From an uncultured Bacteroidales bacterium (GTDB taxonomy: Bacteria; Bacteroidota; Bacteroidia; Bacteroidales; Bacteroidaceae): a stretch of 37,633 bases of DNA. Position numbers and translations under genes: made by a program. This document shows positions 1 through 37,075 of this stretch, in pieces (positions within the stretch are counted from its first letter, which is position 1; each line of letters starts with the position of its first letter). Location: the NCBI GenBank assembly GCA_902785075.1, contig CACZXN010000019.1, positions 1-37,633 on the forward strand, read 5' to 3'. A model generated the notes under the pieces. The model did not search any database. It was given only the letters and a program-made list of their open reading frames with translations, and was not told where the DNA came from.

Positions 1-322
1 CCTAATAGCCAGAGTGGACGAGGTCATCGCTCAGTATGCAGACATTGCTTCCGTCAATACTACCAGTGCATACACACGACTTGTGAAGGCACGCGACTAC
101 TATAGCGGTGATTCAAAAATCAAGAACGACACCGTCATCCTTAACTCCATCAAGCAGTTGACATCATATCTTGACAAGCTACTGAGTCTGACCTCCGGTA
201 TTGATGAGATAACAGCTGTGAAAGAGGCAAACAGCAAATACTATAATTTGCAAGGCCAGCAAATCGACTCCTTACATAAAGGTATTCATATCATCAATGG
301 AAAGAAAGTACTGGTGAGGTGA
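1..322 (+). CDS. C-terminal end of a secreted Bacteroidales protein (partial)
   Basis: The reading frame is open from the window edge, so the GTG at 14 is probably internal and the gene starts upstream. What remains is about 105 residues. The last 40 carry a YYNLQGQ motif, a short linker, a GIHIINGKK motif and a basic end (VLVR). This is the compact C-terminal domain found on many exported Prevotella proteins and is thought to act in sorting or surface attachment. The preceding helical part (NSIKQLTSYLDKLLSL) gives no family. The stop codon lies directly against a tandem repeat array. Function of the whole protein cannot be told from this fragment. Confidence 0.75.
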   Translation, partial: LIARVDEVIAQYADIASVNTTSAYTRLVKARDYYSGDSKIKNDTVILNSIKQLTSYLDKLLSLTSGIDEITAVKEANSKYYNLQGQQIDSLHKGIHIINGKKVLVR

Positions 323-325
323 AGG

Positions 326-720
326 GCTGGAGAGCTGTAGAGCTGTAGAGCTGTAGAGCTGTAGGGCTGTAGAACTGTAGGGCTAAGGACTGTAGAGCTA
401 AGGGCTGTAGAGCTGTAGAGCTGTAGAGCTGTAGAGCTGGAGAACTGGAGAGCTAAGGGCTGTAGAGCTAAGGACTGTAGAGCTAAGGACTGTAGAGCTA
501 AGAACTGTAGAAAAAGGGCTGTAGAGCTGTAGAGCTGTAGAGCTGTAGAACTGTAGGGCTGTAGAACTGTAGAGCTGGAGAGCTGGAGAGCTGGAGAACT
601 AAGGGCTGTAGAGCTGTAGGGCTGTAGGGCTGTAGAACTGTAGGGCTGGAGAGCTGTAGAATTGTAGAGCTAAGGACTGTAGGGCTAAGGACTGTAGAGC
701 TAAGGACTGTAGAATTGTAG
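326..720. repeat. Degenerate octamer tandem array, left arm
   Basis: About 395 bp of head-to-tail short units with consensus AGCTGTAG and variants GGCTGTAG, AACTGTAG, GACTGTAG, AGCTGGAG and the 7-mer AGCTAAG. There are roughly 50 units, counted by eye. There are no spacers, so it is not a CRISPR array. It fills the whole gap between the upstream stop codon and the ATG of the four-helix-bundle gene, ending 3 bp before that ATG. A matching array lies on the other side of the gene. Confidence 0.95.
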
Positions 721-723
721 GAT

Positions 724-1116
724 ATGGAAGTAAAATTGTTTTATAAGAACTTGAAGGTGTATCAAGATGCTAAGGGATTAGTGAATGATGTATATAAACT
801 GATGAAGAAATTCCCAGCAGAGGAACGTTTTGGTCTTTGTGATCAATTAAGAAGGGCAATTATCTCTGTTCCATCGAATATTGTTGAAGGATTATCCAGA
901 CAATCGGATAAAGAGAAACATAATTTCCTAAACATAGCTTATGGTTCATTGATGGAGACTTTATGCCAACTTGATATTGCTACCGACCTCGGATATATTA
1001 CGGAGGAAGAGCTAAAAGATGTAGAGCTAAGAGCCGTAGATTTGATTCGTATGTTAAAAGGAATAATGAGGAAGTTGGACTGTAGAGCTAAGAGCTGTAG
1101 GACTGTAGAGCTGTAG
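724..1116 (+). CDS. Four-helix-bundle protein, S23/IVP family
   Basis: This 130-residue protein belongs to the S23 ribosomal/23S rRNA intervening-sequence protein family. It shows the usual start (FYKNLKVYQDAKGLV), then DQLRRAIISVPSNIVEG, the centre (FLNIAYGSLMETLCQLDIA) and a last amphipathic helix. Family members form small helical bundles; some are encoded within 23S rRNA insertions and the related Avd protein binds a retroelement reverse transcriptase, but the function of most is unknown. The natural family end is near MRKL. The last 12 residues and the TAG stop are read from the repeat array that begins there. The gene is flanked on both sides by the same octamer array, which makes a role linked to the repeats possible but unproven. 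It sits directly against the left array with no visible promoter or Shine-Dalgarno site. Confidence 0.9.
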   Translation: MEVKLFYKNLKVYQDAKGLVNDVYKLMKKFPAEERFGLCDQLRRAIISVPSNIVEGLSRQSDKEKHNFLNIAYGSLMETLCQLDIATDLGYITEEELKDVELRAVDLIRMLKGIMRKLDCRAKSCRTVEL

Positions 1117-1497
1117 GACTGTAGAGCTGTAGGGCTGGAGGGATGGAGAGCTAAGAGCTAAGGGCTGGAGAGCTGTAGGACTGTAGAGCTGTAGAACTGT
1201 AGGGCTGTAGAGCTGTAGGGCTGTAGAGCTAAGGGCTGGAGGGCTGTAGAACTGTAGAGCTGTAGGAATGGAGAGCTAAGAGCTGTAGGACTGTAGAGCT
1301 GTAGAAAAAAGGGCTGTAGAGCTAAGGGCTGTAGAGCTGTAGGACTGTAGAGCTGTAGAGCTGTAGAGCTAAGGACTGTAGAGCTGGAGAGCTGTAGGAC
1401 TGGAGAGCTGTAGGACTGAAGAGCTGTAGAGCTGTAGGACTGTAGAGCTGTAGAAAAAAGGGCTGTAGAACTGGAGAGCTGTAGAGATAAGAAATAA
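1079..1497. repeat. Degenerate octamer tandem array, right arm
   Basis: This array uses the same unit family and orientation as the left arm (AGCTGTAG with GACTGTAG, GGCTGTAG, AGCTGGAG and AGCTAAG variants), with roughly 50 units over about 420 bp. It starts inside the 3' end of the four-helix-bundle gene and supplies its last codons and stop. A few interruptions of the type AAAAAAGGGCTG occur, as in the left arm. It ends at GAGATAAGAAATAAATAAA before the transporter gene. Confidence 0.95.
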
Positions 1498-1559
1498 ATA
1501 AAAATAACATCCCCTTTTGGGGGCGTGTGCTTGAAAACCACGCTAAAAAAACAAGAAAC

Positions 1560-2351
1560 ATGAAACAAAACAAATCAGAGAGCGCTACAATTGTTGGCAA
1601 TCCGTCATCCCCTTTTAAAGGGGACAAAAAAAGAACTTATGTGAGTATTTCCTTCATGCTGATGGGAATCCTCTTCTGTGTATGTCTTATCACTTCTAAC
1701 CTGCTTGAGACCAAGGTGTTCCGCGTCTATGGCGACATCTCACTCACCTGCGGTTTCATTATCTTCCCTATCTCGTACATTCTCAATGACTGTATTGCAG
1801 AAGTATGGGGGTATCGTAAAGCCCGACTGATTATCTGGGCGGGGTTCTTGATGAATTTCTTCGTCGTTTTAATGGGAGCCATTGCCTGTTATCTCCCTGC
1901 GCTCGACCCAGAGAGCGATCTTGCCTTCCGCCAGACATTCATGTTTGCACCCCAAGTCACTATGGCCAGCTTCATCGCCTTCGTGATAGGATCGTTCCTC
2001 AATGCATGGGTGATGAGCAAGATGAAATTAGCAAACAGGAACAAAGGACATAAAAACTATTATTTCTCCCTCAGAGCCATCGCATCTACTATTGTAGGCG
2101 AAAGTGCTGACTCCATCATCTTCTTCCCATTGGCCTTCTACATCTTCCCTACTATTATCGAAGGTGCTCCCAAAGTACCGTTCGAGGTACTGATCAGCCT
2201 AATGGTCACCCAAGTCATTGCTAAGACACTCTACGAGATTGTCGCACTGCCAATCACCATCCGTGTGGTCAACTACGTGAAGAAACATGAGGGTACCGAT
2301 GTATATGATGATGACGTATCGTACAACGCATTTAAGATAAAAGAACTATAA
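1560..2351 (+). CDS. Queuosine precursor transporter (YhhQ/QueT type, DUF165)
   Basis: This multi-pass inner-membrane protein (263 residues from this ATG) imports queuosine precursors such as preQ0 or preQ1. Family marks are the segment ITSNLLETKVF after the first helix, the motif SYILNDCIAEVWGYRKAR, the ASFIAFVIGSFLNAWVMSK helix and ASTIVGESADSIIFFPLAF. About six hydrophobic stretches are visible. The ATG at 1560 follows an A-rich leader and is preferred over an in-frame start at 1527. The N-terminus is about 30 residues long before the first helix, and part of it (PSSPFKGD) is read from a palindromic repeat also seen upstream at 1508, so it may be a repeat insertion. queF follows after a 312-bp repeat tract, which fits a precursor-salvage pathway. 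Confidence 0.9.
   Translation: MKQNKSESATIVGNPSSPFKGDKKRTYVSISFMLMGILFCVCLITSNLLETKVFRVYGDISLTCGFIIFPISYILNDCIAEVWGYRKARLIIWAGFLMNFFVVLMGAIACYLPALDPESDLAFRQTFMFAPQVTMASFIAFVIGSFLNAWVMSKMKLANRNKGHKNYYFSLRAIASTIVGESADSIIFFPLAFYIFPTIIEGAPKVPFEVLISLMVTQVIAKTLYEIVALPITIRVVNYVKKHEGTDVYDDDVSYNAFKIKEL
1606..1624. repeat. Palindromic repeat copy inside the transporter N-terminus
   Basis: The sequence CATCCCCTTTTAAAGGGGA has a near-perfect dyad (CCCCTTTTAAAGGGG) and lies in frame in the first 25 codons of the transporter. A related copy, CATCCCCTTTTGGGGGCG, lies upstream of the gene at 1508-1525. I read it as a dispersed intergenic repeat that has entered the 5' end of the coding region. Confidence 0.55.
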
Positions 2352-2657
2352 TAGGTGAGAGGTGAGAGGTGAGAGTCGGAAGGCTGAAGGCTGAAGGCTG
2401 AAGGCTGAAGGCTGAAGGCTGAAGGCTGAAGGCTGAGGGATGAAACGAAGGCTGAGGGATGAGGGATGAGGGGCGAATTCTGGTTAAGGGTTAAGGGTTA
2501 AGGATTCAAGATTCAAGATTCAAGATTCAAGATTCAGGATTCAGGATTCAAGAGTCAAGGTTCAGGATTCAGGATTCAGGATTCAAGATTCAAGATTCAG
2601 GATTCAAGATTCAGGATTCAAGAGTCAAGAGTCAGGATTCAAGATTAAGAAAGATAA
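2352..2657. repeat. Composite heptamer tandem arrays
   Basis: The whole 306-bp gap between the transporter and queF consists of successive blocks of different 7-bp units, all in the same orientation: GGTGAGA (3 copies), GGCTGAA (about 8), GGGATGA (several), GGTTAAG (3), then a long run of GATTCAA/GATTCAG/GAGTCAA (over 20). There are no spacers and no coding potential. Blocks of one unit change abruptly into blocks of the next. Confidence 0.95.
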
Positions 2658-2663
2658 GATAAT

Positions 2664-3122
2664 ATGGAACGAAATGAAGAAGGTTTGCAGTCATTAGGAC
2701 GTAAGACCGAATATAAGACCGACTATGCACCAGAGGTGTTAGAAACATTTGTGAACAAACACCCAGAGAATGACTACTGGGTACAATTCAACTGTCCGGA
2801 ATTTACCAGTCTCTGTCCCATCACCGGTCAGCCCGACTTTGCAGAGATACGTATCAGCTACCTACCCGACCAACGAATGGTTGAAAGCAAGAGTCTGAAA
2901 CTCTATCTCTTCAGTTTCCGCAATCATGGAGACTTTCATGAAGACTGTGTCAATGTCATTATGAAAGACCTTATCCGTCTGATGGACCCTAAGTACATAG
3001 AAGTGACAGGGTTCTTCACCCCACGTGGCGGCATTTCAATCTATCCATATGCCAATTATGGACGTCCAGGTACCAAATACGCAGAACTGGCCACTTATCG
3101 AATGCAGAATCATAACCTGTAA
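2664..3122 (+). CDS. queF: NADPH-dependent 7-cyano-7-deazaguanine reductase QueF
   Basis: QueF reduces preQ0 to preQ1 with NADPH in cytosolic queuosine synthesis. The 152-residue length fits the single-domain (YkvM/B. subtilis) type. The catalytic segment [13 protein letters not shown] carries the nucleophilic Cys (residue 51) and the Asp seven residues on. The substrate-binding stretch [20 protein letters not shown] and the end [11 protein letters not shown] are typical. No queC, queD or queE is seen in the window. The neighbouring transporter suggests that precursor is taken up. An 11-bp gap to the DUF4421 gene suggests cotranscription. Confidence 0.97.
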
Positions 3123-3133
3123 TCACTACATAC

Positions 3134-4234
3134 ATGAAACAAAAGATCCTCATACTCGCATTAATGATGCTCCCCATGACTGCATGGGGACAGGGATTGA
3201 CTCAATGGGTATTGGATCGTCTTGACTCGATGGCTACCAAAGGAATCGATCGTAACTACATCGACCTACCCAAGCATCCATGGACAATAGAAGCCCGTAT
3301 CACGGAAAGTAACTCAAGGATGAACATGACGTCCAGATGGGAAGATGAAGAAGAATTAGACGGTACGGCAGACTTCAGCATCACAACCCATAATGGCTAT
3401 CATCCTGCGTTAGGATTGAAAATCAGTTATCGAGGGACAGGCATCGGTTTTTCCAAGCGGTTGAGCAGCAAAGGCTCCAGTTTCTCCTTTAACTCAACGA
3501 GTGGACATTATGGATTTAATTTAAGCCTGAAATCATTCGAAAACACCAATGCAGATTTCCTCGCATCAGGTTATGAAGAAGGCGTCCCTACTCAACTACA
3601 AGACAATTTAGAGGTGGAGCATCCTATCAAGGTACGTTCACAGTTCCTTGATGCCTACTACATGTTCAACGGCTCACACTACTCATACGCAGCAGCCAAT
3701 AAGCCAGGACTGATACAGCGGCGCTCAGCTGGTTCGGTGGTAGCAGGCATCATGTATTATCACGCCAGTGTGGACTTCATCAGTAACAACATCTCTAACG
3801 TCATCTTAAACATACTGATGCACAACATCGGAAAACAAAAGATGTCACAAGCCAGTATTGGGGTTGGGTATGCTTATAATTGGGTACCAGCACGCGGATG
3901 GTTGATCGGTGCTGTAGTCATGCCTATGTTCACTTTCTATAACCGCACTAAAACCTATCGCTATGAAGTGACTTATATTGGAGACAAAGAAATTGAAGAT
4001 GATGATTTTTTTGAAGAAGGTGATGACATGTTCTTAGTGTCAGATCCAATGATAGAGCGCACCCCTAACAAATTAGAGTTCAACTATGACGGTCGCTTAT
4101 CCATTATCCGTAACTGGGAACGTTTCCATGTACGGCTAACTGGTCAATACCACCATTTCACTTATGGAAACGACGACACCCACGGATGGCTTTCAGACTG
4201 GTCTGCTTATCTATCTCTGGGTTATCGGTTTTAA
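3134..4234 (+). CDS. DUF4421 outer-membrane protein
   Basis: The 366-residue product starts with a signal peptide (KILILALMMLPMTAWGQ). The rest is rich in alternating aromatic/polar strands and ends in LSLGYRF, with a terminal Phe as in outer-membrane beta-barrels. The segment HPALGLKISYRGTGIGFSK and the body match the DUF4421 family of Bacteroidetes. An acidic loop (EIEDDDFFEEGDD) near residue 285 is probably exposed. Its substrate is unknown. It lies 11 bp after queF, but nothing in it points to a queuosine role. Confidence 0.8.
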   Translation: MKQKILILALMMLPMTAWGQGLTQWVLDRLDSMATKGIDRNYIDLPKHPWTIEARITESNSRMNMTSRWEDEEELDGTADFSITTHNGYHPALGLKISYRGTGIGFSKRLSSKGSSFSFNSTSGHYGFNLSLKSFENTNADFLASGYEEGVPTQLQDNLEVEHPIKVRSQFLDAYYMFNGSHYSYAAANKPGLIQRRSAGSVVAGIMYYHASVDFISNNISNVILNILMHNIGKQKMSQASIGVGYAYNWVPARGWLIGAVVMPMFTFYNRTKTYRYEVTYIGDKEIEDDDFFEEGDDMFLVSDPMIERTPNKLEFNYDGRLSIIRNWERFHVRLTGQYHHFTYGNDDTHGWLSDWSAYLSLGYRF

Positions 4235-4339
4235 GTGACTGCACTCACAAATCGGTCATTTTTCATCGACCTAGGTGAATTTCTTATGTTCAACAAAAAA
4301 AAAATTGCAAATCGTAAATGGTATTTGGAAAACATTTAC

Positions 4340-4347
4340 TAACTTTG
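4340..4347 (+). promoter_or_regulatory. -7 box of the pgk promoter
   Basis: TAACTTTG matches the Bacteroidetes primary-sigma -7 box TAnnTTTG and lies about 50 bp before the pgk ATG in an AT-rich leader. A TTTG at the usual -33 spacing is not clear. It probably drives pgk and the four genes after it. Confidence 0.6.
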
Positions 4348-4397
4348 CATTCAAATATGTGCTTAAATTTTTAATTTTTTAATTAAAACGTAATAGT

Positions 4398-5663
4398 ATG
4401 AATATCAAAGATTACAACTTCGACGGCAAAAAAGCTATCGTACGTGTTGACTTCAACGTGCCTATTCAGGACGGAAAGATCACAGACATGACTCGTATCA
4501 ACGGTGCAGCTCCAACTCTCAAACTGATTCTTGAGAAAGGTGGAAGCCTTATCATCATGTCACACATGGGTAAGCCAAAAGGCAAAAAGAAACCAGAACT
4601 CTCACTCAGCCAGATTGTTGACGCAGTAAGCCAGACTCTGGGTGTTCCTGTTAAGTTCGCTCCAGACTGTGCTGACGCATCAGAAGCTGCAGCAGCCCTG
4701 AAGAAAGGTGAGGTATTGTTGCTTGAAAACCTCCGTTACTATCCAGAGGAAGAAGGCAAACCTGTAGGTATAGAGAAAGATGATCCTGCATATGAGGATG
4801 CTAAGAAAGAAATGAAAGGTCGTCAGAAGGACTTCGCAAAGAAGTTGGCTTCATACGCTGACTGTTATGTGATGGATGCCTTCGGAACAGCTCACCGCAA
4901 GCATGCATCTACAGCAGTCATCGCTGACTACTTCGATGCAGACAACAAGATGTTAGGCCTGTTGATGGAGAAGGAAGTACAAGCTGTTGATAATGTCCTC
5001 AGCAACATCAAGCGTCCATTCGTTGCCATTATGGGTGGTTCAAAGGTTTCTACCAAGATCGGTATCATTGAGAACCTTCTCGGTAAGGTAGATAAGCTCA
5101 TCCTCTGTGGTGGTATGACTTATACATTCATGAAGGCTCACGGTGGTAACATCGGCAACTCAATTGTTGAGCTTGACAAGCTCGACGTAGCTCTCGGTGT
5201 AGAGGAAATGGCAAAGAAGAACGGTGTTGAACTCGTTCTCGGTGAAGACTCTGTATGCTGCACTGGCTACGACTTCTCTACTTTCTCAGTTAAGCCAGGT
5301 GCTCAGATCAAGACTTTCCCATCAAACGCTATCGAAGACGGATGGGACGGCCTCGATGCAGGACCAAAGAGTCGCGAGAAATTTGCAAAGGCAATCGAAG
5401 GTGCTAAGACTATCCTTTGGAACGGTCCTGCAGGATGCTTCGAATGCGAAGACTTCACTCCAGGTTCACGCGCTGTAGGCGAGGCTGTAGCAAAGGCAAC
5501 AGCTGAAGGAGCATTCTCACTCATCGGTGGTGGTGACTCTGTTGCTTGTGTCAACAAGTTTGGATTGGCAGACAAGGTTTCTTACATCTCAACAGGTGGT
5601 GGTGCACTGCTTGAAGCAATCGAAGGTAAGGTACTTCCAGGTGTAGCTGCTATCAAAGGTTAA
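4398..5663 (+). CDS. pgk: Phosphoglycerate kinase
   Basis: This enzyme of glycolysis transfers phosphate from 1,3-bisphosphoglycerate to ADP in the cytosol. The full-length 421-residue protein shows RVDFNVP at the start, the [16 protein letters not shown] segment, [36 protein letters not shown] and the nucleotide-binding [13 protein letters not shown] with [14 protein letters not shown] near the end. The start follows an AT-rich leader with a -7 box. It heads a compact same-strand cluster: the next gene starts 3 bp after its stop. Confidence 0.98.
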
Positions 5664-5666
5664 TCA

Positions 5667-6407
5667 GTGAAAGTATCTATTTCAATACTGTTAACAGCTG
5701 TCGTACTGAGCATGTTCAGCGCATGCCAGTACGGCAGTGTTGATAATACAGGAACAAGAGCAGACTCCGATTCAACGACTATCCACATTGCTGTGCTACC
5801 TACAGCGGAATGTCAACCTTTCTATGTAGCACAGCAGCGGGGATTGTACGACTCGTTGGGGATTAGCGTATGTCTTGATACATTCTTTGCCGCTATGGAT
5901 GCAGATACAGCCTTTATGAACAACCAGGTGCAGCTGTTGATATCCGACTCCCTAAAAGCCCGGTATCTCAACCGTTTGGTTCAAAAAGACTCTATCGTTT
6001 CCATTATCTCAGACACCTTACGGCTATCGATGATGACAGGCAAACCCACCCGAATCAAGTCAATCAACAGCCTAAAAGAGAAAATCATTGCGGTAACACG
6101 CAACTCTGCTATCGACTACTTTGCCGATCAGACCATGGACAAAGCCAAAATAAAACGAGAGTATCTCAATCGCCCACAAATTAACAACATCGCACTAAGA
6201 GCAGACATGCTTAACCTGAACCAGTTTGACGGTGCCATCTTACCCGAACCGTTCGCTACTCAATGTGAAGCATTAGGTGCCTATCGGATAAACAGTACAA
6301 AGGAACCCCTCATGCGAGTGCTGGTCAAATCAAGTGTGATGAAGAAACGCAAACAAGACATCCAGAAAATTATTGAAGCCTACTCGATTGCCAAACATGT
6401 CGAATAA
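5667..6407 (+). CDS. Substrate-binding lipoprotein, ABC-transporter type (SsuA/NMT1-like)
   Basis: The 246-residue protein has a lipoprotein signal (lipobox FSAC, Cys about residue 20) and a periplasmic-binding fold of the SsuA/ThiY/NMT1 kind: IHIAVLPTAECQPFYVAQQ near the start, then QRGLYDSLGI, and DGAILPEPFATQ. The start is GTG, 3 bp after the pgk stop; no better ATG fits the signal peptide. No permease or ATPase gene is nearby, so the binding protein is an orphan here and its ligand is unknown. Its end overlaps the next gene by 11 bp, supporting translation as one unit. Confidence 0.8.
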   Translation: MKVSISILLTAVVLSMFSACQYGSVDNTGTRADSDSTTIHIAVLPTAECQPFYVAQQRGLYDSLGISVCLDTFFAAMDADTAFMNNQVQLLISDSLKARYLNRLVQKDSIVSIISDTLRLSMMTGKPTRIKSINSLKEKIIAVTRNSAIDYFADQTMDKAKIKREYLNRPQINNIALRADMLNLNQFDGAILPEPFATQCEALGAYRINSTKEPLMRVLVKSSVMKKRKQDIQKIIEAYSIAKHVE

Positions 6408-8622
6408 GAATATATATAGCGAACTGCAAGACGGAAACCTGGTTGATGCACTGATGATGCTGAAGACCAAGGTTGACCATTTAGGGGACTGGCAACTCCA
6501 ACAAGAGTTGGAACAAATCCAATCCACCTATACTTCCATGCTATCGTATCTGACACAAGGCATCGAAGACCCAGAGGCGATGAACATACGCGGGAAACTG
6601 ATTCAGCAGGCCTATTCTATCAATGACAGAGCCAACCGCTCCATCACCTTAAGGAAGCAACCGTTCAACAAGTATTGTCAGACTTATACAACCAGTAGGG
6701 CTGAAAGTATTGATGTTCCAACGACCGTGGTAGCATTAGAGACCATCGGAACCACCATGAAGGATTTAAAATCCGACGAAATGCGTGAAAGCATCCGCCG
6801 TCATGATATGGAACAGACCATCAAGCAGCGAGACGAACTAATGGGAAAGTTGTTTGACCATACATGGACTTCCGATATCTGGACAAAAAGCGATTATGCC
6901 AATTATTCCAACCTCTTCGCAAGTGAGCAACTGCCAGCATCAGACAAAGCTATCATCGTCAGTGCGATTACACTGGCATGCTACGAGCTGTTTGATGTAC
7001 AGAAACTGATGCTATTATTCGATGTCTATCTGCATCATGACATCGAAATCAGCCAACGGGCACTTGTAGGATTACTCCTACTTATTATCCGCTATGACAA
7101 CCGCCTGACCTATTATCCACAAGTAAAATCGCGGTTCAGCCTCTATTGTGAGAACCACCAGTTTGTGGAAGACTGCTTCCGCATCTTTATGCAATTGCAG
7201 TACAGCAAGATGACTGACGCTGTCACAGCCAAGATGACTAACGACATTATGCCAGCCATCCTACGTTCGTCACGTTTCAATGGAATTGACCTTCGCAAAC
7301 TCGACAGCGAGTTGACCAAGAATGGAGAGAACCCTGAGTGGCATCAAAATACCAAGGATGACAGCAAAGCAGAGAAGAAAATGCGGCAAATGGCTGACAT
7401 GCAGACCGAAGGTGCAGATGTCTATTGGACATCATTTGTTTCACTCAAAGGATTTCCTTTCTTCCAACAACTCTACCATTGGGTAGCACCATTCTCGTTT
7501 GAATACCCAGAACCATATCGGTTGGCCAACTCTATGCGGCCAGAGATCCTGAAAACAGTAACGACACTTTTCCAACTCGCTCCCTTCTGCAGCAGCGACA
7601 TGTTTTCCTTCATCTTCATGATTGAAAGTGTGAAACAAATGGGACAAGACGTGATTGCCGACCAAATCAATTCGCAGTTGAACGAAGAAGGAGCACAAGA
7701 CCTGTTTGAACACATCAAACCACGTGAACGTAAGGCTATTGATGTATCACGTTGCTACATCTACGACCTCTACAGATTGTTCAAAGCCTATCCATACCAT
7801 AGTCAACTGTTTGACCCGTTCTGCAAGCAGTTTGTCAACTTCTCCCCACTCTACTTTGACATTCTCAAACCACTCGCTGAAAACTATGACGAAACCCTCT
7901 CACTGGCAGAGTTCATGATGCGACGAGGAGAATACCACGATGCCATCGCCCTCTTCGGTCATCTCAATCCGAAAGAGCGCGAAGAAGACAGCGACCTGTG
8001 GCAGAAGATGGGATTCTGCCTACAAAAGATCGGAGATAGCGAGACGGCCATCAAGATGTACACCACAGCCTATCAACTGAATCCAAACTCGAAATGGACC
8101 ATCCAACATCTTGCACAGACAGCCTTCGATGACAAAGACTATGCGCTGGCTCTGACATATATCGATATCATCCTCAAAGAAGACGAAGACAATCTAAAGT
8201 GGCTGAGCCGGAAAGCAGAATGTTTGTTCGGTATGGAACAATATGAAGACAGCATTCCTACCCTTTACAAGATAGCCTATCTCGACGAGCAGTCGGAAAA
8301 GGCACAAGAGATGCTCGCATGGGGGCTACTGATGACTGGCAACACGGAGAAAGCAACAAAGATACACAGCGAACTGATGGAACAAAACCCTTCGGTTCGC
8401 AACAACATCAATCTGGCGCATCTCCTTATCTTAAAAGGAGAAATACAAGAAGCCTATCATCTCTATGACGCAGCCTATCAACTGGCAAAGGACGAGGAGG
8501 AGTTTCGCAAGGCATTCTGGGAATGGAAGAATTATCTGGAGAGAATTGGACTGGATGCAGGCAAATTGCAGTTATTGTTCGATACAGTAAGAACCATCAG
8601 AAACGGAGGGCAAAGTGATTAG
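6397..8622 (+). CDS. Large tetratricopeptide-repeat protein
   Basis: This 741-residue protein has no signal peptide. Residues about 515-720 carry several TPR units (for example ETAIKMYTTAYQLNPNSKWT and DYALALTYIDIILKEDEDN). The N-terminal two thirds are helical and unrecognised. I chose the ATG at 6397, which overlaps the previous gene by 11 bp, rather than an upstream TTG at 6373. The end overlaps the RNA methyltransferase start by 8 bp. TPRs usually mediate protein contacts; no partner can be named. Confidence 0.8.
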   Translation: MSNKNIYSELQDGNLVDALMMLKTKVDHLGDWQLQQELEQIQSTYTSMLSYLTQGIEDPEAMNIRGKLIQQAYSINDRANRSITLRKQPFNKYCQTYTTSRAESIDVPTTVVALETIGTTMKDLKSDEMRESIRRHDMEQTIKQRDELMGKLFDHTWTSDIWTKSDYANYSNLFASEQLPASDKAIIVSAITLACYELFDVQKLMLLFDVYLHHDIEISQRALVGLLLLIIRYDNRLTYYPQVKSRFSLYCENHQFVEDCFRIFMQLQYSKMTDAVTAKMTNDIMPAILRSSRFNGIDLRKLDSELTKNGENPEWHQNTKDDSKAEKKMRQMADMQTEGADVYWTSFVSLKGFPFFQQLYHWVAPFSFEYPEPYRLANSMRPEILKTVTTLFQLAPFCSSDMFSFIFMIESVKQMGQDVIADQINSQLNEEGAQDLFEHIKPRERKAIDVSRCYIYDLYRLFKAYPYHSQLFDPFCKQFVNFSPLYFDILKPLAENYDETLSLAEFMMRRGEYHDAIALFGHLNPKEREEDSDLWQKMGFCLQKIGDSETAIKMYTTAYQLNPNSKWTIQHLAQTAFDDKDYALALTYIDIILKEDEDNLKWLSRKAECLFGMEQYEDSIPTLYKIAYLDEQSEKAQEMLAWGLLMTGNTEKATKIHSELMEQNPSVRNNINLAHLLILKGEIQEAYHLYDAAYQLAKDEEEFRKAFWEWKNYLERIGLDAGKLQLLFDTVRTIRNGGQSD

Positions 8623-9334
8623 CAAGAACCAAATCAAACATATCAGAAGTCTGGAACACAAGAAATTCAGAGACCAATATGGTGTGTTCGTCGCTGAAGG
8701 GCCAAAAGTAGTGAACGACCTCAAGGGACATTTCGAGTTGGTGGAACTATTCGAAGGCGAAGATGCTGACAAAGTCAGTTTTCTTGACACCCCACAACAT
8801 CTACTTGCCATTTTCAAGAAACGCGATAGCAGTTCTGCCCTTCAATCGTATTTCGCTGCCATGAAACGTCAGCAACCGACATTGTCACTTGCACTCGACA
8901 ACGTACAGAACCCAGGTAATCTAGGTACCATCATACGCCTTGCCGACTGGTTTGGTATCGAACATATTTTCTGCTCGCCAGGCTGTGCCGACATTTATAA
9001 TCCCAAAGTCGTACAAGCCACAATGGGTGCCCTTGCACGTGTTCAGATACATGAAGTCAACCTTCCGCAATTCATGACAGAGGTACAGGAAGCAGGAACA
9101 GATTTCCCTATCTATGGGACATTCCTAGACGGTGAAAACATTTACAACACATCGTTGAAGCCTCACGGATTGATTGTGATGGGTAATGAAGGGCATGGGA
9201 TTTCTGCAGAGGTGGCAAAACTCGTCACACACCGACTACTCATTCCCAACTATCCGCAAGGTCGCGAAACAAGTGAATCACTCAATGTAGCCATCGCTAC
9301 AGCTATCGTATGCTCGGAATTCAGAAGAAGATAA
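8615..9334 (+). CDS. TrmH/SpoU-family RNA 2'-O-methyltransferase
   Basis: This SPOUT methyltransferase should transfer a methyl group from S-adenosylmethionine to a ribose 2'-OH in rRNA or tRNA. All three SpoU motifs are present: NPGNLGTIIRLADWFGI, MGNEGHGIS and ESLNVAIATAIV. The N-terminal 90 residues (SKNQIKHIRSLEHKKFRDQ, then VAEGPKVV) are the substrate-binding domain seen in RlmB/TsnR-like members. The start is GTG at 8615, preceded by GGAGG five bases upstream, one of the few clear Shine-Dalgarno sites here. The target nucleotide cannot be deduced. Confidence 0.92.
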   Translation: MISKNQIKHIRSLEHKKFRDQYGVFVAEGPKVVNDLKGHFELVELFEGEDADKVSFLDTPQHLLAIFKKRDSSSALQSYFAAMKRQQPTLSLALDNVQNPGNLGTIIRLADWFGIEHIFCSPGCADIYNPKVVQATMGALARVQIHEVNLPQFMTEVQEAGTDFPIYGTFLDGENIYNTSLKPHGLIVMGNEGHGISAEVAKLVTHRLLIPNYPQGRETSESLNVAIATAIVCSEFRRR

Positions 9335-9342
9335 ATCGCTTG

Positions 9343-11658
9343 ATGAAAGCTGTCAACCATACTGCACTAGCCGTCATCATCTTGTTGCTAACGATGTTAG
9401 CTTCAGGTTGTTCTGTTGACCGTTTCATTAGCGAAGATGAATACTTCCTGAAACAAACACAAGTGGTTTCCGCCAACCCGAAAGCAACGAAAAACCTACT
9501 ACTCGAGGACTATATCCTACAGACCCCCAACAGCAAATGGTTTGGAGCAAAGATTCCACTCAAGATTTACTGTCTGGGAGGTGTTGACACAACCAACTGG
9601 GCAACACGATTGTTCCGTAAGATTGGTCAAGACCCCGTTATCTTTGACCAACTCAAGGCAGAGCGTACCATGCAAGACCTCCAACAAGTGTTGTACAATG
9701 AAGGGTATATGCATGCAGATATCCAACTTGGCAAGACCGTCAAAGGAAAGAAGATTAACATCACCTATCTCGTAGATCCAGGTACACAGTTCAGCATCCG
9801 CAACATCAAACGTAATATTGATGACCCTGTGCTTGAACAATTAATCAGTCATGACGACACCTTAAACTCTTTGCTGCAACACGGAATGCCGTTCAACATC
9901 AACCGCCTCAACGAAGAGCGCAACCGAATCACTACCTATCTACGCACAACTGGCTACTATAAATTCTACAAGGAGCTCATCACCTTTGAGGCTGACACTT
10001 GTAGGGGTAGCACAGAGGTAGACATCACCATGAACATACCTCTCTATCTTGACAACAACCGCTCCACCCCACATCAGCACCAGCAGTACCACATCGGTAA
10101 CCTCAATTACTTTGTCGATACAAACGGTTTAACAGATACGCTTCAGCTCAATTGTATCAGACACAAGGGAACCAACATCTACTACAGCGACCGACTGCGC
10201 TACCGTCCGAATTTGCTTACCTCCAACACATTGCTTCGGGCTGGTGACCTCTACAACGAAAACTATCAGAAACTCACGTATAGATACCTCACACGGCTTC
10301 AAGCCCTCAGTTATTCGAACATCAAGTTTGAAGAACAAGACGATGAACCCGATCCTATCCTCGACTGTAACATTATCGTCAATCATGCTGCATCGAAATC
10401 CATTAGTTTCGACCTCGAAGGCACGAACTCAGCAGGCGATCTCGGAATTGCTGCCAGTACGTCCTTTCGTCACAAAAACCTGTTCCGAGGCTCTGAAAGT
10501 CTGATGGTGAAACTTCGTGGGGCTTATGAAGCCATCACAGGTCTTGAAGGCTATGACGGACACAACTATATTGAATTAGGCGGAGAGGCCACATTGGGTT
10601 TCCCTGGTTTTCTGATGCCAGTTGTCAGCAAACGATTCGGAGCACTTCACAGTGCCACATCTGAAATATCGTTGCAATACAACATGCAAAACCGTCCTGA
10701 ATTCAACAGACGTGTGCTTACTGCAGCATGGAGATACAAATGGAGCAATGTCAATCAGAAAACAGCACACCGTTTTGACCTGTTGGAAATTAACTATGTC
10801 TATATGCCTTGGATATCAAAGACCTTCAAGGAACAGTATCTTGATTCACTGGGTAAGACAAATGCCATCTTGAAATACAACTACGAGAACCTTCTGATTA
10901 CCAAACTGGGATACACCTACGCCTATAATTCCTTGGGTACAGCTACAACGACCACGTATGGAAAGAATGCATATACCATCAAGTTCAATATCGAGACAGC
11001 AGGTAACCTTCTGGAAGGCTTAACAGGCATTTTCGAAACCAAATACACCGAAGACGGGAAACGGAAGTTCTGCGGCATCGCTTACGCACAATATGTAAAA
11101 GGAGATTTTGACTTCTCGAAGAGTTTCCGAATTGACAAAAACAACTCGGTTGCCTTCCATGCTGCCATAGGGGTTGCTTACCCATACGGTAACTCCAACA
11201 TCTTGCCTTTCGAGAAACGCTATTTCGCTGGTGGAGCCAATAGTGTGAGAGGATGGTCAGTACGTTCGCTTGGACCAGGAAAGTATAACGGAGCTGACCG
11301 AGGTATCAACTTCATCAACCAGTCAGGTGACCTGAAACTCGACCTCAGCATTGAATATCGTGCATTCCTGTTCTGGAAATTCAATGGAGCATTGTTCATT
11401 GATGCAGGAAACATCTGGACCATACGCGATTATGCTGATCAACCTGGCGGAGCATTCCGACTGAACGAATTCTACAAACAGATTGCAGTTGCCTATGGAC
11501 TTGGTCTGCGAATGAACCTCGACTTCTTTATTCTACGCTTCGATGCGGGTATGAAGGCCATCAATCCTGCCTATAAGGGACGTGACCACTACCCTATCGC
11601 TCATCCTGTTTTAAGTCGCGATTTCACCTTCCACTTTGCTGTCGGATTACCATTCTGA
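9343..11658 (+). CDS. tamL: BamA/TamA-family outer-membrane lipoprotein (TamL-like)
   Basis: The 771-residue protein begins with a lipoprotein signal (LLLTMLASGC, Cys 23), continues with POTRA-like repeats (residues about 40-320, including RNITYLV-type strands and HGMPFNINRLNEERNRI) and ends in a 16-strand-type barrel with the signature ARYFAGGANSVRGW-like segment (RYFAGGANSVRGWSVR) and a terminal Phe (FAVGLPF). The lipid anchor on an Omp85 barrel is the mark of the Bacteroidetes TamL type, thought to insert outer-membrane proteins with TamB. No tamB is present in this window. The ATG at 9343 gives a proper signal peptide and is preferred over 9310. It lies 8 bp after the methyltransferase gene. 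Confidence 0.88.
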   Translation: MKAVNHTALAVIILLLTMLASGCSVDRFISEDEYFLKQTQVVSANPKATKNLLLEDYILQTPNSKWFGAKIPLKIYCLGGVDTTNWATRLFRKIGQDPVIFDQLKAERTMQDLQQVLYNEGYMHADIQLGKTVKGKKINITYLVDPGTQFSIRNIKRNIDDPVLEQLISHDDTLNSLLQHGMPFNINRLNEERNRITTYLRTTGYYKFYKELITFEADTCRGSTEVDITMNIPLYLDNNRSTPHQHQQYHIGNLNYFVDTNGLTDTLQLNCIRHKGTNIYYSDRLRYRPNLLTSNTLLRAGDLYNENYQKLTYRYLTRLQALSYSNIKFEEQDDEPDPILDCNIIVNHAASKSISFDLEGTNSAGDLGIAASTSFRHKNLFRGSESLMVKLRGAYEAITGLEGYDGHNYIELGGEATLGFPGFLMPVVSKRFGALHSATSEISLQYNMQNRPEFNRRVLTAAWRYKWSNVNQKTAHRFDLLEINYVYMPWISKTFKEQYLDSLGKTNAILKYNYENLLITKLGYTYAYNSLGTATTTTYGKNAYTIKFNIETAGNLLEGLTGIFETKYTEDGKRKFCGIAYAQYVKGDFDFSKSFRIDKNNSVAFHAAIGVAYPYGNSNILPFEKRYFAGGANSVRGWSVRSLGPGKYNGADRGINFINQSGDLKLDLSIEYRAFLFWKFNGALFIDAGNIWTIRDYADQPGGAFRLNEFYKQIAVAYGLGLRMNLDFFILRFDAGMKAINPAYKGRDHYPIAHPVLSRDFTFHFAVGLPF

Positions 11659-11670
11659 TAATAAACAAAA

Positions 11671-11696
11671 AGAACGCAAACCTGGGTTTGCGTTCT
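11671..11696 (+). terminator. Hairpin terminator after the pgk-tamL unit
   Basis: The inverted repeat AGAACGCAAAC / GTTTGCGTTCT with a short loop begins 12 bp after the tamL stop. The T tract that follows is weak. It lies in a convergent gap and may also serve the minus-strand gene that ends at 11740. Confidence 0.75.
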
Positions 11697-11739
11697 GAAT
11701 TTGTAGCGGCTACAGAATCTTTTTCATATCCATGTTTCC

Positions 11740-12870
11740 TTACCTGATCACTATCTTATGACCATTCTTTATATATAAGCCGGGGACGGTGGGCTTGCCT
11801 GTAAGGCGACGACCCTGTAGGTCGTAAATCTCTGAACTCTCAACTTTCAACTTTCCACTTTCAACTTGATAAATGCCGGTTATGTCGTTGACGGTAATCA
11901 GGATATCATCCAGCGCGATGTAGTTGTTGTCGTAGCCGTGGTGGTAGAAGGCAATCCAGACGCTCTGCCCGGCGTAGGCCGAGAGGTCGAGGGTCTGCTG
12001 CGTCCAGTCGCCCTGCTCTGCGGTGGGCGTTATGTCGACGAGGGTGGTCCTGCCCGTGTCGTTGCCCCACAACATTACGGAGTACTTGTCCTCAGGGTAT
12101 TCTTTGTTGACGCGGAACCACCACGAGAGGGTGACCTTCTGACCGGCTGACAGGACAATCTCAGGCGATACCAGATAGTCGTCGGCCTGCATACCTTCTC
12201 CTATCCACGAGTACGAGGTGGCAAGACGTTCGCCGGAATGGGCGGTCAATTCGGTGCTGGTGGGTTGTATCATCCAAGAGATGAAGTCCTGGTTGGCGTT
12301 GATGACCGTCCAACCGTCCAGACCGTTCTCGAAGTCCTGGCTATAGGGGAATTCGGTGACGGGTTGGCTAGTTTCCACAGGCCGGTAGATGGCCTGGCTA
12401 TAGCCATCGGCATCTGTATTGTACAGCGCCTCGGTCTCTCCATCGGCAGAGAGGAAGCGCTCAAAGATTTCGTCGCAGAACTCCACTGTCTCGCCAGTGG
12501 AATGGAAGCCCTGATGATAAAGCGTGTTGACGAACTTCTCGGCAGGCACGGTGTTGTTCCAGCAGATACTGATGGCATAGCGCAGGTTCTGGCCGTCCTC
12601 AGTCTCGAAGAGGTACTGCTCGGTGAGTTCGTTGGTGGCGTCTACCCAATACCATTTGTGCCAGCTTTGGTACGGGTCTTCCCAGTATTCGAGCTGGTTG
12701 TTTCCGTCCTGCCACCACTCCTTCTTCTGCATGTGCTGCTCCACATCAGCGATGCTGCAGCCCCACTGACGCAGGGGATCGAAGTTGAGGATGTCGGACT
12801 CTGTTGTCTGTGCATTTACTTGGAATGCCACGGCGCATATCAGCGCCACGATGGTTACGATTCTTTTCAT
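11740..12870 (-). CDS. Secreted choice-of-anchor J domain protein with C-terminal sorting tail
   Basis: The 376-residue protein has a signal peptide ending AFQVNAQ. Residues about 22-165 are unrecognised. Residues about 170-325 form a choice-of-anchor J/MAM-like beta-sandwich (FPYSQDFENGLDGWTVIN, SPEIVLSAGQKVTLSWWF, YIALDDILI). The end (EIYDLQGRRL, GLYIKNGHKIVIR) is the same type of tail as in the protein at the window start. Between the domain and the tail, five 7-bp repeat units are read in frame. The DNA looks GC-richer than the genes on either side of the cluster. It is probably surface-exposed or secreted; binding target unknown. Confidence 0.8.
   Translation of the reverse strand: MKRIVTIVALICAVAFQVNAQTTESDILNFDPLRQWGCSIADVEQHMQKKEWWQDGNNQLEYWEDPYQSWHKWYWVDATNELTEQYLFETEDGQNLRYAISICWNNTVPAEKFVNTLYHQGFHSTGETVEFCDEIFERFLSADGETEALYNTDADGYSQAIYRPVETSQPVTEFPYSQDFENGLDGWTVINANQDFISWMIQPTSTELTAHSGERLATSYSWIGEGMQADDYLVSPEIVLSAGQKVTLSWWFRVNKEYPEDKYSVMLWGNDTGRTTLVDITPTAEQGDWTQQTLDLSAYAGQSVWIAFYHHGYDNNYIALDDILITVNDITGIYQVESGKLKVESSEIYDLQGRRLTGKPTVPGLYIKNGHKIVIR
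11831..11865. repeat. In-frame heptamer array inside a coding region
   Basis: Five 7-bp units (TCTGAAC, TCTCAAC, TTTCAAC, TTTCCAC, TTTCAAC, plus-strand reading) lie in the linker of the secreted protein and encode VESGKLKVESSE-like residues. The same unit family recurs at 18081 inside another gene. Confidence 0.85.
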
Positions 12871-36694: not shown

Positions 36695-37075
36695 ATGTCA
36701 ATGTACCTGTCTCGATGGGCTTATCAGGGCGTTCTGCGTCGCGACACGGATGCCGATGTCGATGAATTCCTCTGCCGCGATGCTCACTACACGTTCATCG
36801 AGACAGTTCCTCAGAAGTCTTGCAAGCGCAATCCGCGTGTGTTCGACGGACATGCTCACTACACGTTCATCGAGACAGTTCCTCAGAAGTCTTGCAAGCG
36901 CAATCCGCGTGTGTTCGACGGACGGTACCTCACCATTACCCGCCGCAGCGACGGCAGCCTGTGGCCTAACTTCAAACCGATGAAGACCGGTAAGGGTTTC
37001 AGCCTCGAGCGATATACCTTCAATGTCTATCTTGAACTTCATAAAGCACTGAAAGGCCTGGTAGGGAATGAGTGA
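36695..37075 (+). CDS. Small hypothetical protein with an internal 24-residue duplication
   Basis: This 126-residue frame is GC-richer than its neighbours. It contains two identical 24-residue copies (AHYTFIETVPQKSCKRNP...) and then RYLTITRRSDGSLWPNFKPM, then GFSLERYTFNVYLELHKAL. I recognise no family with certainty; the C-terminal part looks like short conserved Bacteroidales hypothetical proteins. Without the second copy it would be about 102 residues. No promoter is visible between it and the folD terminator, so the N-terminus may be truncated or wrongly placed. The opposite strand is also open here, but its protein shows no domain-like composition. Confidence 0.5.
   Translation: MSMYLSRWAYQGVLRRDTDADVDEFLCRDAHYTFIETVPQKSCKRNPRVFDGHAHYTFIETVPQKSCKRNPRVFDGRYLTITRRSDGSLWPNFKPMKTGKGFSLERYTFNVYLELHKALKGLVGNE
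36780..36923. repeat. Perfect 72-bp tandem duplication
   Basis: 36780-36851 and 36852-36923 are identical by eye. The unit is a multiple of three, so the reading frame is kept. Identity over the whole unit suggests a very recent duplication or an assembly artefact. Confidence 0.95.

Follow-up and report, generated by a model that had tools for sequence, protein, structure and literature searches.

How does a small gene come to lie between two long arrays of one short repeat, in the gap between two host genes? The question is raised by a locus near the start of a 37,633 nt stretch of DNA from an uncultured Bacteroidales bacterium (NCBI GenBank assembly GCA_902785075.1, contig CACZXN010000019.1). 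This whole stretch, called the window here, is contig C19 of a genome (G000) of 105 contigs and 85.5 % completeness. A preliminary description had reported a gene of the S23/IVP type between two octamer arrays of about 400 bp in one orientation, and had placed the start of the gene 3 nt after one array and its end inside the other; the first claim was confirmed with Tandem Repeats Finder (TRF) and the profile PF05635, the second from the coordinates. The block at 323–1490 is probably one copy of a widespread, undescribed class of small intercistronic elements, which we would define, with the same reservation, as a short open reading frame (ORF) of the S23 family, or elsewhere of the GxxExxY family, bounded by two complementary arrays with units of mostly 7–11 bp. 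We read this class as akin to the intervening sequences (IVSs) of rRNA and to repetitive extragenic palindromic sequences with their associated tyrosine transposases (REP/RAYT), and as a member of neither. The class has flanking-array enrichment, complementary arms, a position at stop/start junctions, filled and empty sites, arm-only derivatives and a match between motif and protein. Genes and neighbours throughout are mechanical ORFs rather than annotated genes.

Arrays and complementary arms at S23 genes

PF05635 was searched in 61 related genomes, of which 39 were positive, and 94 loci, part of the listed matches, were fetched. These gave 99 unique S23 ORFs; nine with less than 200 bp of flank or a score of up to 45 bits were omitted and 90 were scored. 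Controls were 498 ORFs from the 60 fetched regions, with a size-matched subset of 119 (up to 180 aa). Arrays were called by TRF with a period of 6–24 within 100 bp on both sides, and a strong arm match was a local score of at least 18 between the 150 bp upstream and the 150 bp downstream, inverted or direct. Arrays on both sides were found at 37 of 90 S23 genes and 10 of 498 controls (Fisher P=7e-25), the enrichment that the preliminary description had set beforehand as a test. Inverted matches distinguished S23 genes more strongly (47 of 90 versus 5 of 498, Fisher P=2e-38) than did direct matches (5 of 90 versus 8 of 498, Fisher P=0.035), and the inverted score exceeded the direct score at 75 of 90 S23 loci and at 215 of 498 controls. 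Among size-matched controls the figures were 2/119 for flanking arrays, 2/119 for inverted and 0/119 for direct matches. Two of the five controls with inverted matches are themselves GxxExxY genes (L098 2485, L117 13280) and two adjoin one (L117 13772, L123 4136). The proposed gene–array element was therefore upheld as to enrichment, but not as to its same-orientation layout, which is not general, and GxxExxY genes use a similar layout. The general layout has inverted arms that complement each other, placed at cistron junctions, and the same-orientation arrays of the window are unusual.

A second set was drawn from the GTDB species collection and consisted of the 80 loci ranked best among 560 relatives in a scan with four closer S23 proteins; titles included Verrucomicrobia, Acidobacteria, Ignavibacteriae, Cloacimonetes, Clostridia and Planctomycetales. 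This set yielded 89 S23 ORFs, 81 of them with 150 bp on both sides, and inverted matches were found at 26 of 81 versus 4 of 191 controls, direct matches at 7 of 81 versus 1 of 191. A third set, from the window's phylum and run without controls, was weaker than the others (inverted 7/30, direct 2/30). The S23/IVP family was present in 235 of 296 sampled genomes of this phylum. The commonest period in periodic 5' flanks of S23 genes was 7 (41/65 and 25/44).

Both neighbours were co-directional with S23 at 78 of 88 loci, two of the 90 having no neighbour within 1 kb, versus 53 % of 477 controls (the 253/477 used in the Fisher test derives from this rounded percentage), and at 73 % of 78 loci in the second set. 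Distances were taken at 72 selected loci with co-directional neighbours, spacers of 25–250 nt and an arm score of at least 14. The median was 3 nt from the upstream stop to the 5' arm and 9 nt from the 3' arm to the following start codon; with the stem closed, stop and start would be a median of 14.5 nt apart. Sites recurred, with Pfam-checked examples between phosphotransacetylase and acetate kinase and between the flavoprotein and iron–sulfur subunits of succinate dehydrogenase. Further recurrent sites were between a class-V aminotransferase and a 2-hydroxyacid dehydrogenase (by our reading serC–serA), before ribosome recycling factor and in ABC exporter pairs. Several recurrent junctions bear different units in different genomes.

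Filled, empty and remnant versions of one junction could be compared within the genus. At sdhA–sdhB (16 loci from 15 of 17 genomes) the spacer was 1–2 bp in G000, G001, G003, G006, G008, G015 and G016, and 5–16 bp at five loci (G002, G004, G007, G012 and a second copy in G010). It contained S23 in G010 (457 bp, with inverted arms) and G014 (446 bp), and consisted of 121 bp of arms without an ORF in G009 and G011. At pta–ackA (16 of 17 genomes) an S23 element was found in G013 and a gene-less array in G014, with eleven other spacers of 16–100 bp; the 43 bp in G008, G015 and G016 look, on inspection by eye, like the 3' arm that elements have at this junction in other genomes. A scan for inverted array pairs in 121 stretches, half of which had been picked for S23, found 64, of which 34 lay around S23 and two around GxxExxY; the rest were 15 close pairs without an ORF and 13 others, mostly with host genes between the arrays.

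The GxxExxY genes (TIGR04256, PF13366; PDDEXK_3) have a similar paired-arm layout with units of 9–11 bp, for example at L117:13280–13651, L098:2485–2919 and L123:5485–5916. Of 32 matches, 27 were scored (three were short and two were duplicates), with a strong inverted match at 11 and a direct match at six. At three sites S23 and GxxExxY occupy one junction with both neighbours matching (L019 versus L092/L133/L134; L088/L089 versus L129; L032 versus L132), and at the other sites that they share only one neighbour matches.

Arm pairing, repeat units and competing explanations

The predicted duplex of the two arms was better than that with a reversed 3' arm at 91 % of the 90 S23 loci, 81 % of 80 in the second set and 78 % of 27 GxxExxY loci, versus 54 % of 150 controls, and the predicted fold of one locus (L074) contained 38 arm–arm pairs (z -6.2). 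The two window arrays gave a duplex of -265 kcal/mol, versus -148 ± 9 with a shuffled and -107 with a reversed 3' array. Although the window copy is one of the few with direct arrays, its arms are still predicted to be able to pair by means of a near-palindromic unit: AGAGCTGT is nearly self-complementary, with only 2 % and 0.5 % of shuffled units equal or better in two registers. A longer variant of the window unit is ordinary in this respect (45 % of shuffled units). Of the S23 loci, ten have a direct match that outscores the inverted match, and nine of these paired better than the reversed control, two marginally (L092, L257). Arm pairing may act in RNA or in DNA.

The arm unit follows the relatedness of the S23 protein. 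For pairs of S23 genes at different sites, an arm similarity of at least 18 was seen in 0.3 % of 2073 pairs below 25 % protein identity, and at higher identity in 7 % of 243 (45–55 %), 30 % of 50 (55–70 %) and three of five (>70 %); the correlation between arm and protein (r 0.27) was reached in none of 1000 permutations. Motifs common by eye within protein clusters were AAT(T/G)NNN heptamers, GAAGTTA-type 9–11-mers and ATTTACTATT. Base composition also differed between the two flanks, with G exceeding C in the 60 nt before S23 at 74, 77 and 94 % of loci (sets of 90, 81 and 33) versus 38 % of 279 controls, and C exceeding G in the 60 nt after it at 57, 69 and 85 % versus 43 % of controls. This bias, which the flanks of GxxExxY loci did not have, indicates that the unit tends to keep to one strand with respect to S23.

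Dispersal was followed for three units, each in 61 genomes and with reversed-pattern controls. The window unit, as a 20-base pattern, had 77 overlapping matches in G000 and none in the 60 related genomes, and its reversed pattern had no match in any of the 61; 44 of 65 listed matches were in the window and the rest on C5, C7, C10, C22, C57, C58 and C74. The unit ATAGTCC/GC (ATAGTSC) of G026 was found at three further places in that genome and in no other of the 61. The unit GAGAAGTTA (GAGAAGTTR) of G006 recurred elsewhere in that genome and was also present in G029, where an S23 gene bears it too (this gene holds stops and shares 65 % identity over 72 residues); G010, G014 and G056 had one match each, about the level of the reversed control. 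Reversed controls of these two units gave one match (G058) and three matches (G043, G050, G056).

The S23 proteins are under purifying selection. The ratio dN/dS was 0.06, 0.14, 0.15 and 0.16 in the four pairs with usable divergence and 0.27 and 0.41 in two near-identical pairs; in the remaining pairs compared (60 % identity or more) silent sites were saturated, with pN well below pS.

Several observations weigh against regarding array and gene as one element. Arrays are found without the gene: 8–9 % of control gene flanks are periodic, 29 intergenic arrays were counted in 438 kb of G000, and the window's unit stands at at least seven places in G000 without a PF05635 match. Independent variation of arrays and gene, named in the preliminary description as a refutation of its proposal, is in this respect partly seen. 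Periodic 5' flanks of controls likewise have 7 as their most frequent period (27/47). Forty-three of the 90 S23 genes fall below the inverted threshold and 40 below both thresholds, several of the 40 having short inverted matches by eye. One direct-array locus, L272, clearly fails to pair. Mismatches that sense RNA could accommodate as G–U pairs (189) were not commoner than those of the A–C type (218) in arm–arm alignments of 137 S23 loci, so that selection on RNA pairing is unsupported for S23 arms. No clean target-site duplication was seen at sdhA–sdhB, the one site examined base by base. The dispersal of units comes from three units only, and assemblies of metagenome-assembled genomes (MAGs) may collapse or break arrays.

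Many of these points would suit an explanation in which arrays are a generic, fast-growing intergenic feature and S23 merely lands in or near them, for example because arrays tolerate insertions. Orphan arrays are common and share the 7 bp period, the window unit occurs at several places without S23, the sampled arrays of G000 have many unrelated units, and S23 arms have no G–U signature. We nevertheless consider this explanation unlikely. It does not predict that arms should be inverted and complementary (47/90 versus 5/498) or nearly flush with stop and start codons, that the motif should track S23 relatedness at unrelated sites, or that a similar layout should appear in other phyla. Array density also stands against it, at 2.0 per 100 kb in a relative without a PF05635 match versus 7.1 and 7.2 in two carriers, figures which come from about 0.4 Mb of each of three genomes, in stretches that were not random and that included the window.

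It is doubtful that the elements are IVSs of mRNA, with arms selected only as an RNA stem that is cut by RNase III or loops out, as in 23S rRNA, and with S23 as a passenger. The predicted fold of L074 and the position at cistron junctions agree with such a role, as does the IVS of Coxiella, for which PMC4990558 describes excision by RNase III as well as an S23 ORF and complementary ends. GxxExxY arms do have more G–U than A–C mismatches (46 versus 24, P=0.01, 17 loci), and all loci pooled at a stricter threshold gave 190 versus 175. However, the S23 arms have no such excess, purifying selection acts on the S23 protein, and a match between motif and protein would not be expected of a passenger.

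A third possibility, that the arms are terminal inverted repeats of a non-autonomous DNA transposon served by an unlinked transposase or helper, with S23 and GxxExxY as interchangeable cargo, is in our view improbable. It would account for a layout common to two unrelated ORF families and to versions without an ORF, and the mismatch pattern of S23 arms is strand-symmetric. The arms are, however, tandem arrays of variable length instead of fixed termini, the one site examined has no clean target-site duplication, and the motif follows S23 relatedness, which indicates that S23 is not freely interchangeable.

On the reading that we favour, of arms and S23 gene as one intercistronic element, the two would move as one and go into gaps between cistrons, where they do least harm. 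The closed stem would loop out the ORF and bring stop and start back to about 10–20 nt, so that the operon would keep working, by analogy with the complementary ends that make an rRNA IVS tolerable. The S23 protein may bind its cognate repeat unit and thereby maintain or spread it, a role which would resemble that of RAYT proteins for REPs; background for binding is the pentameric toroidal structure known in the family and its homology to the Avd protein of diversity-generating retroelements (DGRs), the latter according to PMC10053308. More tentatively, and as a possibility that we rate below an even chance, S23 proteins could act sequence-specifically to generate, lengthen and disseminate a short repeat of their own, with a cognate unit for each clade; complementary arrays would be seeded at junctions genome-wide and the protein would travel between two of them, and the rRNA IVS would be one niche of a larger, multi-phylum class that includes GxxExxY.

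The window copy and its surroundings

The block follows the 3' part of an upstream host gene (14–322, plus strand, as are all features of this region), whose frame is open from the window edge and whose C-terminus GKKVLVR ends at a TGA stop at 320–322. The 5' array begins directly after this stop (323–720, about 398 bp) and consists of the 8-mers AGAGCTGTAG and AGAGCTAAGGACTGTAG and their variants, with a period of 8/16. The S23 ATG follows its last unit after 3 nt, and the ORF (724–1116) is intact and encodes 130 aa. The 3' array (1079–1490, about 412 bp) has the same unit and orientation and overlaps the end of the S23 ORF. TRF called two period-8 arrays on one strand, at 326–671 (44 copies) and 1080–1486 (52 copies), and also called the 5' array with period 16 over 316–713. 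The S23 ORF matches PF05635 over residues 8–113 (E=4.3e-37; 127 bits versus a cut-off of 33.8) and TIGR02436 (E=2.7e-35; 120.9 bits versus a cut-off of 24), and the solved structure 2gsc is a relative (E=4e-21). It is the only sense-strand ORF of at least 80 aa in the block, antisense array ORFs lying outside that search.

The final 13 or so codons of the ORF (LDCRAKSCRTVEL) consist of 3'-array sequence, and a 20 bp array-like piece lies further inside the coding sequence at 1020–1039, where 19 of 20 bases equal the 3' array and a 15-mer is exact. The score of this match was not reached in 300 codon shuffles, which suggests that the array and the gene end exchanged sequence or share an origin. 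Elsewhere in G000, a tRNA pseudouridine synthase gene (family by Pfam; L379:1763–2584, minus strand) runs into an array of AGCTGTAG; its array-encoded tail, RAKSCRTVEL, is identical to that of the window S23 ORF.

Beyond the 3' array lies a conserved leader of the next gene (1505–1558, GGGGGCGTGTGCTTGAAAACCACGC), found by eye also in relatives with an element-free site, and then the downstream host gene, a Vut_1 (PF02592) transporter by Pfam (1560–2351). In G013 the site is without the element (L037): after the upstream C-terminus, read from DNA as GKKVLVK and a stop, come a short spacer in which no arrays are visible, the leader and the transporter gene. The leader has the look of a riboswitch-type leader; it had no Rfam match at the gathering threshold. 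The window copy would have lost the inverted layout or never had it, the near-palindromic unit keeping the arms able to pair, and its arms may have expanded to about 400 bp where the next gene owns a conserved leader.

The junction between the Vut_1 gene and a QueF-like gene (PF14489 by Pfam; 2664–3122) is filled by 312 bp of 7 bp arrays, GAAGGCT and GATTCAA, without an S23 gene (2352–2663), probably a remnant or an independent array. In several relatives there is almost no gap between these two genes, or they overlap. Near the far end of the window, two perfect 72 bp tandem copies lie within a short ORF (36780–36923) and two 45 bp tandem copies with 97 % matches lie near the contig end (37113–37206). 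Several contigs of G000 end about 90–250 bp from short-unit arrays (L306:125–246, L309:254–307, L311:230–313, L313:229–303, L315:92–208; four of the five are 11-mers), which suggests that arrays may break the assembly.

Known systems and significance

The S23/IVP family has no known function according to PMC4990558. The rRNA IVS described there resembles the elements in having an S23-family ORF between complementary, stem-forming ends, in its sporadic, selfish-looking occurrence and in insertion where continuity matters least. Complementary ends around an ORF were found here as inverted arms at 47 of 90 loci, in the predicted fold of L074 and, in the window, as a near-palindromic unit. Unlike the rRNA IVS, the elements lie between protein-coding genes (one after tmRNA), their arms are tandem arrays of short units whose sequence changes from copy to copy, and purifying selection acts on their S23 proteins; the Coxiella IVS ORF, by contrast, is described in PMC4990558 as in reductive evolution. 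An rRNA IVS is by definition placed within a 23S or 16S rRNA gene. Membership among rRNA IVSs was rejected for the window copy, which lies between protein genes with no Rfam match at the gathering threshold in window positions 1–12000. All 40 scanned S23 loci (L001–L003, L006–L034, L187–L194) likewise had no Rfam match at this threshold, and in nine more the Rfam matches were to a tmRNA, a tRNA and a group II intron, one of each, with none to rRNA. In a Cloacimonetes MAG, an S23 ORF starts 57 bp after a tmRNA gene (L288:3602–4372).

RAYTs are Y1/HUH tyrosine transposases and REPs are imperfect palindromes. The likeness to REP/RAYT drawn in the preliminary description holds in so far as a small gene has on both sides a repeat with further, genome-specific copies in other intergenic regions, with three tested units dispersed and units following protein relatedness. 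It fails in that the elements have a four-helix-bundle protein and short tandem units, and membership was rejected because no Y1 HUH transposase was found among sense-strand ORFs of at least 80 aa in the block, the rest of the genome being outside the search for Y1. A DGR was likewise rejected: the window S23 protein has weak profile matches to Avd (NF033474, E=1e-6; bAvd, E=3.5e-6), and homology of Avd to PF05635 is noted in PMC10053308, but no reverse transcriptase match (PF00078) was found in G000, at its 85.5 % completeness and with template and variable repeats outside the search.

Miniature inverted-repeat transposable elements of intergenic regions and operons (Correia, ERIC, Chunjie) share inverted ends, an intergenic position and stem–loop transcripts, and RNase III cutting is reported for Correia-containing transcripts (PMC10969869). 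Unlike these, the elements have an intact, conserved ORF and tandem-array ends, and no parent insertion sequence or target-site duplication was identified for them. The TAACTGA heptamers of Beggiatoaceae, Cyanobacteria and some Bacteroidetes (PMC4679880) are similar as tandem heptamers just upstream of start codons, some in operons. They differ in being described as direct repeats, and the text of that source mentions neither S23, 23S rRNA nor a helix bundle; they may be gene-less relatives of the S23-type arrays. Searches of an open-access library brought up no account of an S23 or GxxExxY gene flanked by paired arrays of short units, subscription papers and preprints being mostly outside the search, and with that reservation we regard the layout as undescribed.

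Since the junctions occupied belong to core operons (those of acetate kinase, succinate dehydrogenase, 2-hydroxyacid dehydrogenase, ribosome recycling factor and ABC export), the elements may affect how such operons are expressed; they are also a natural way for operons to acquire tandem arrays and new small genes. The elements also suggest a possible origin of the rRNA IVS. Protein clades linked to cognate short repeats give a direct biochemical handle on the function of the S23/IVP family, for which solved structures exist.
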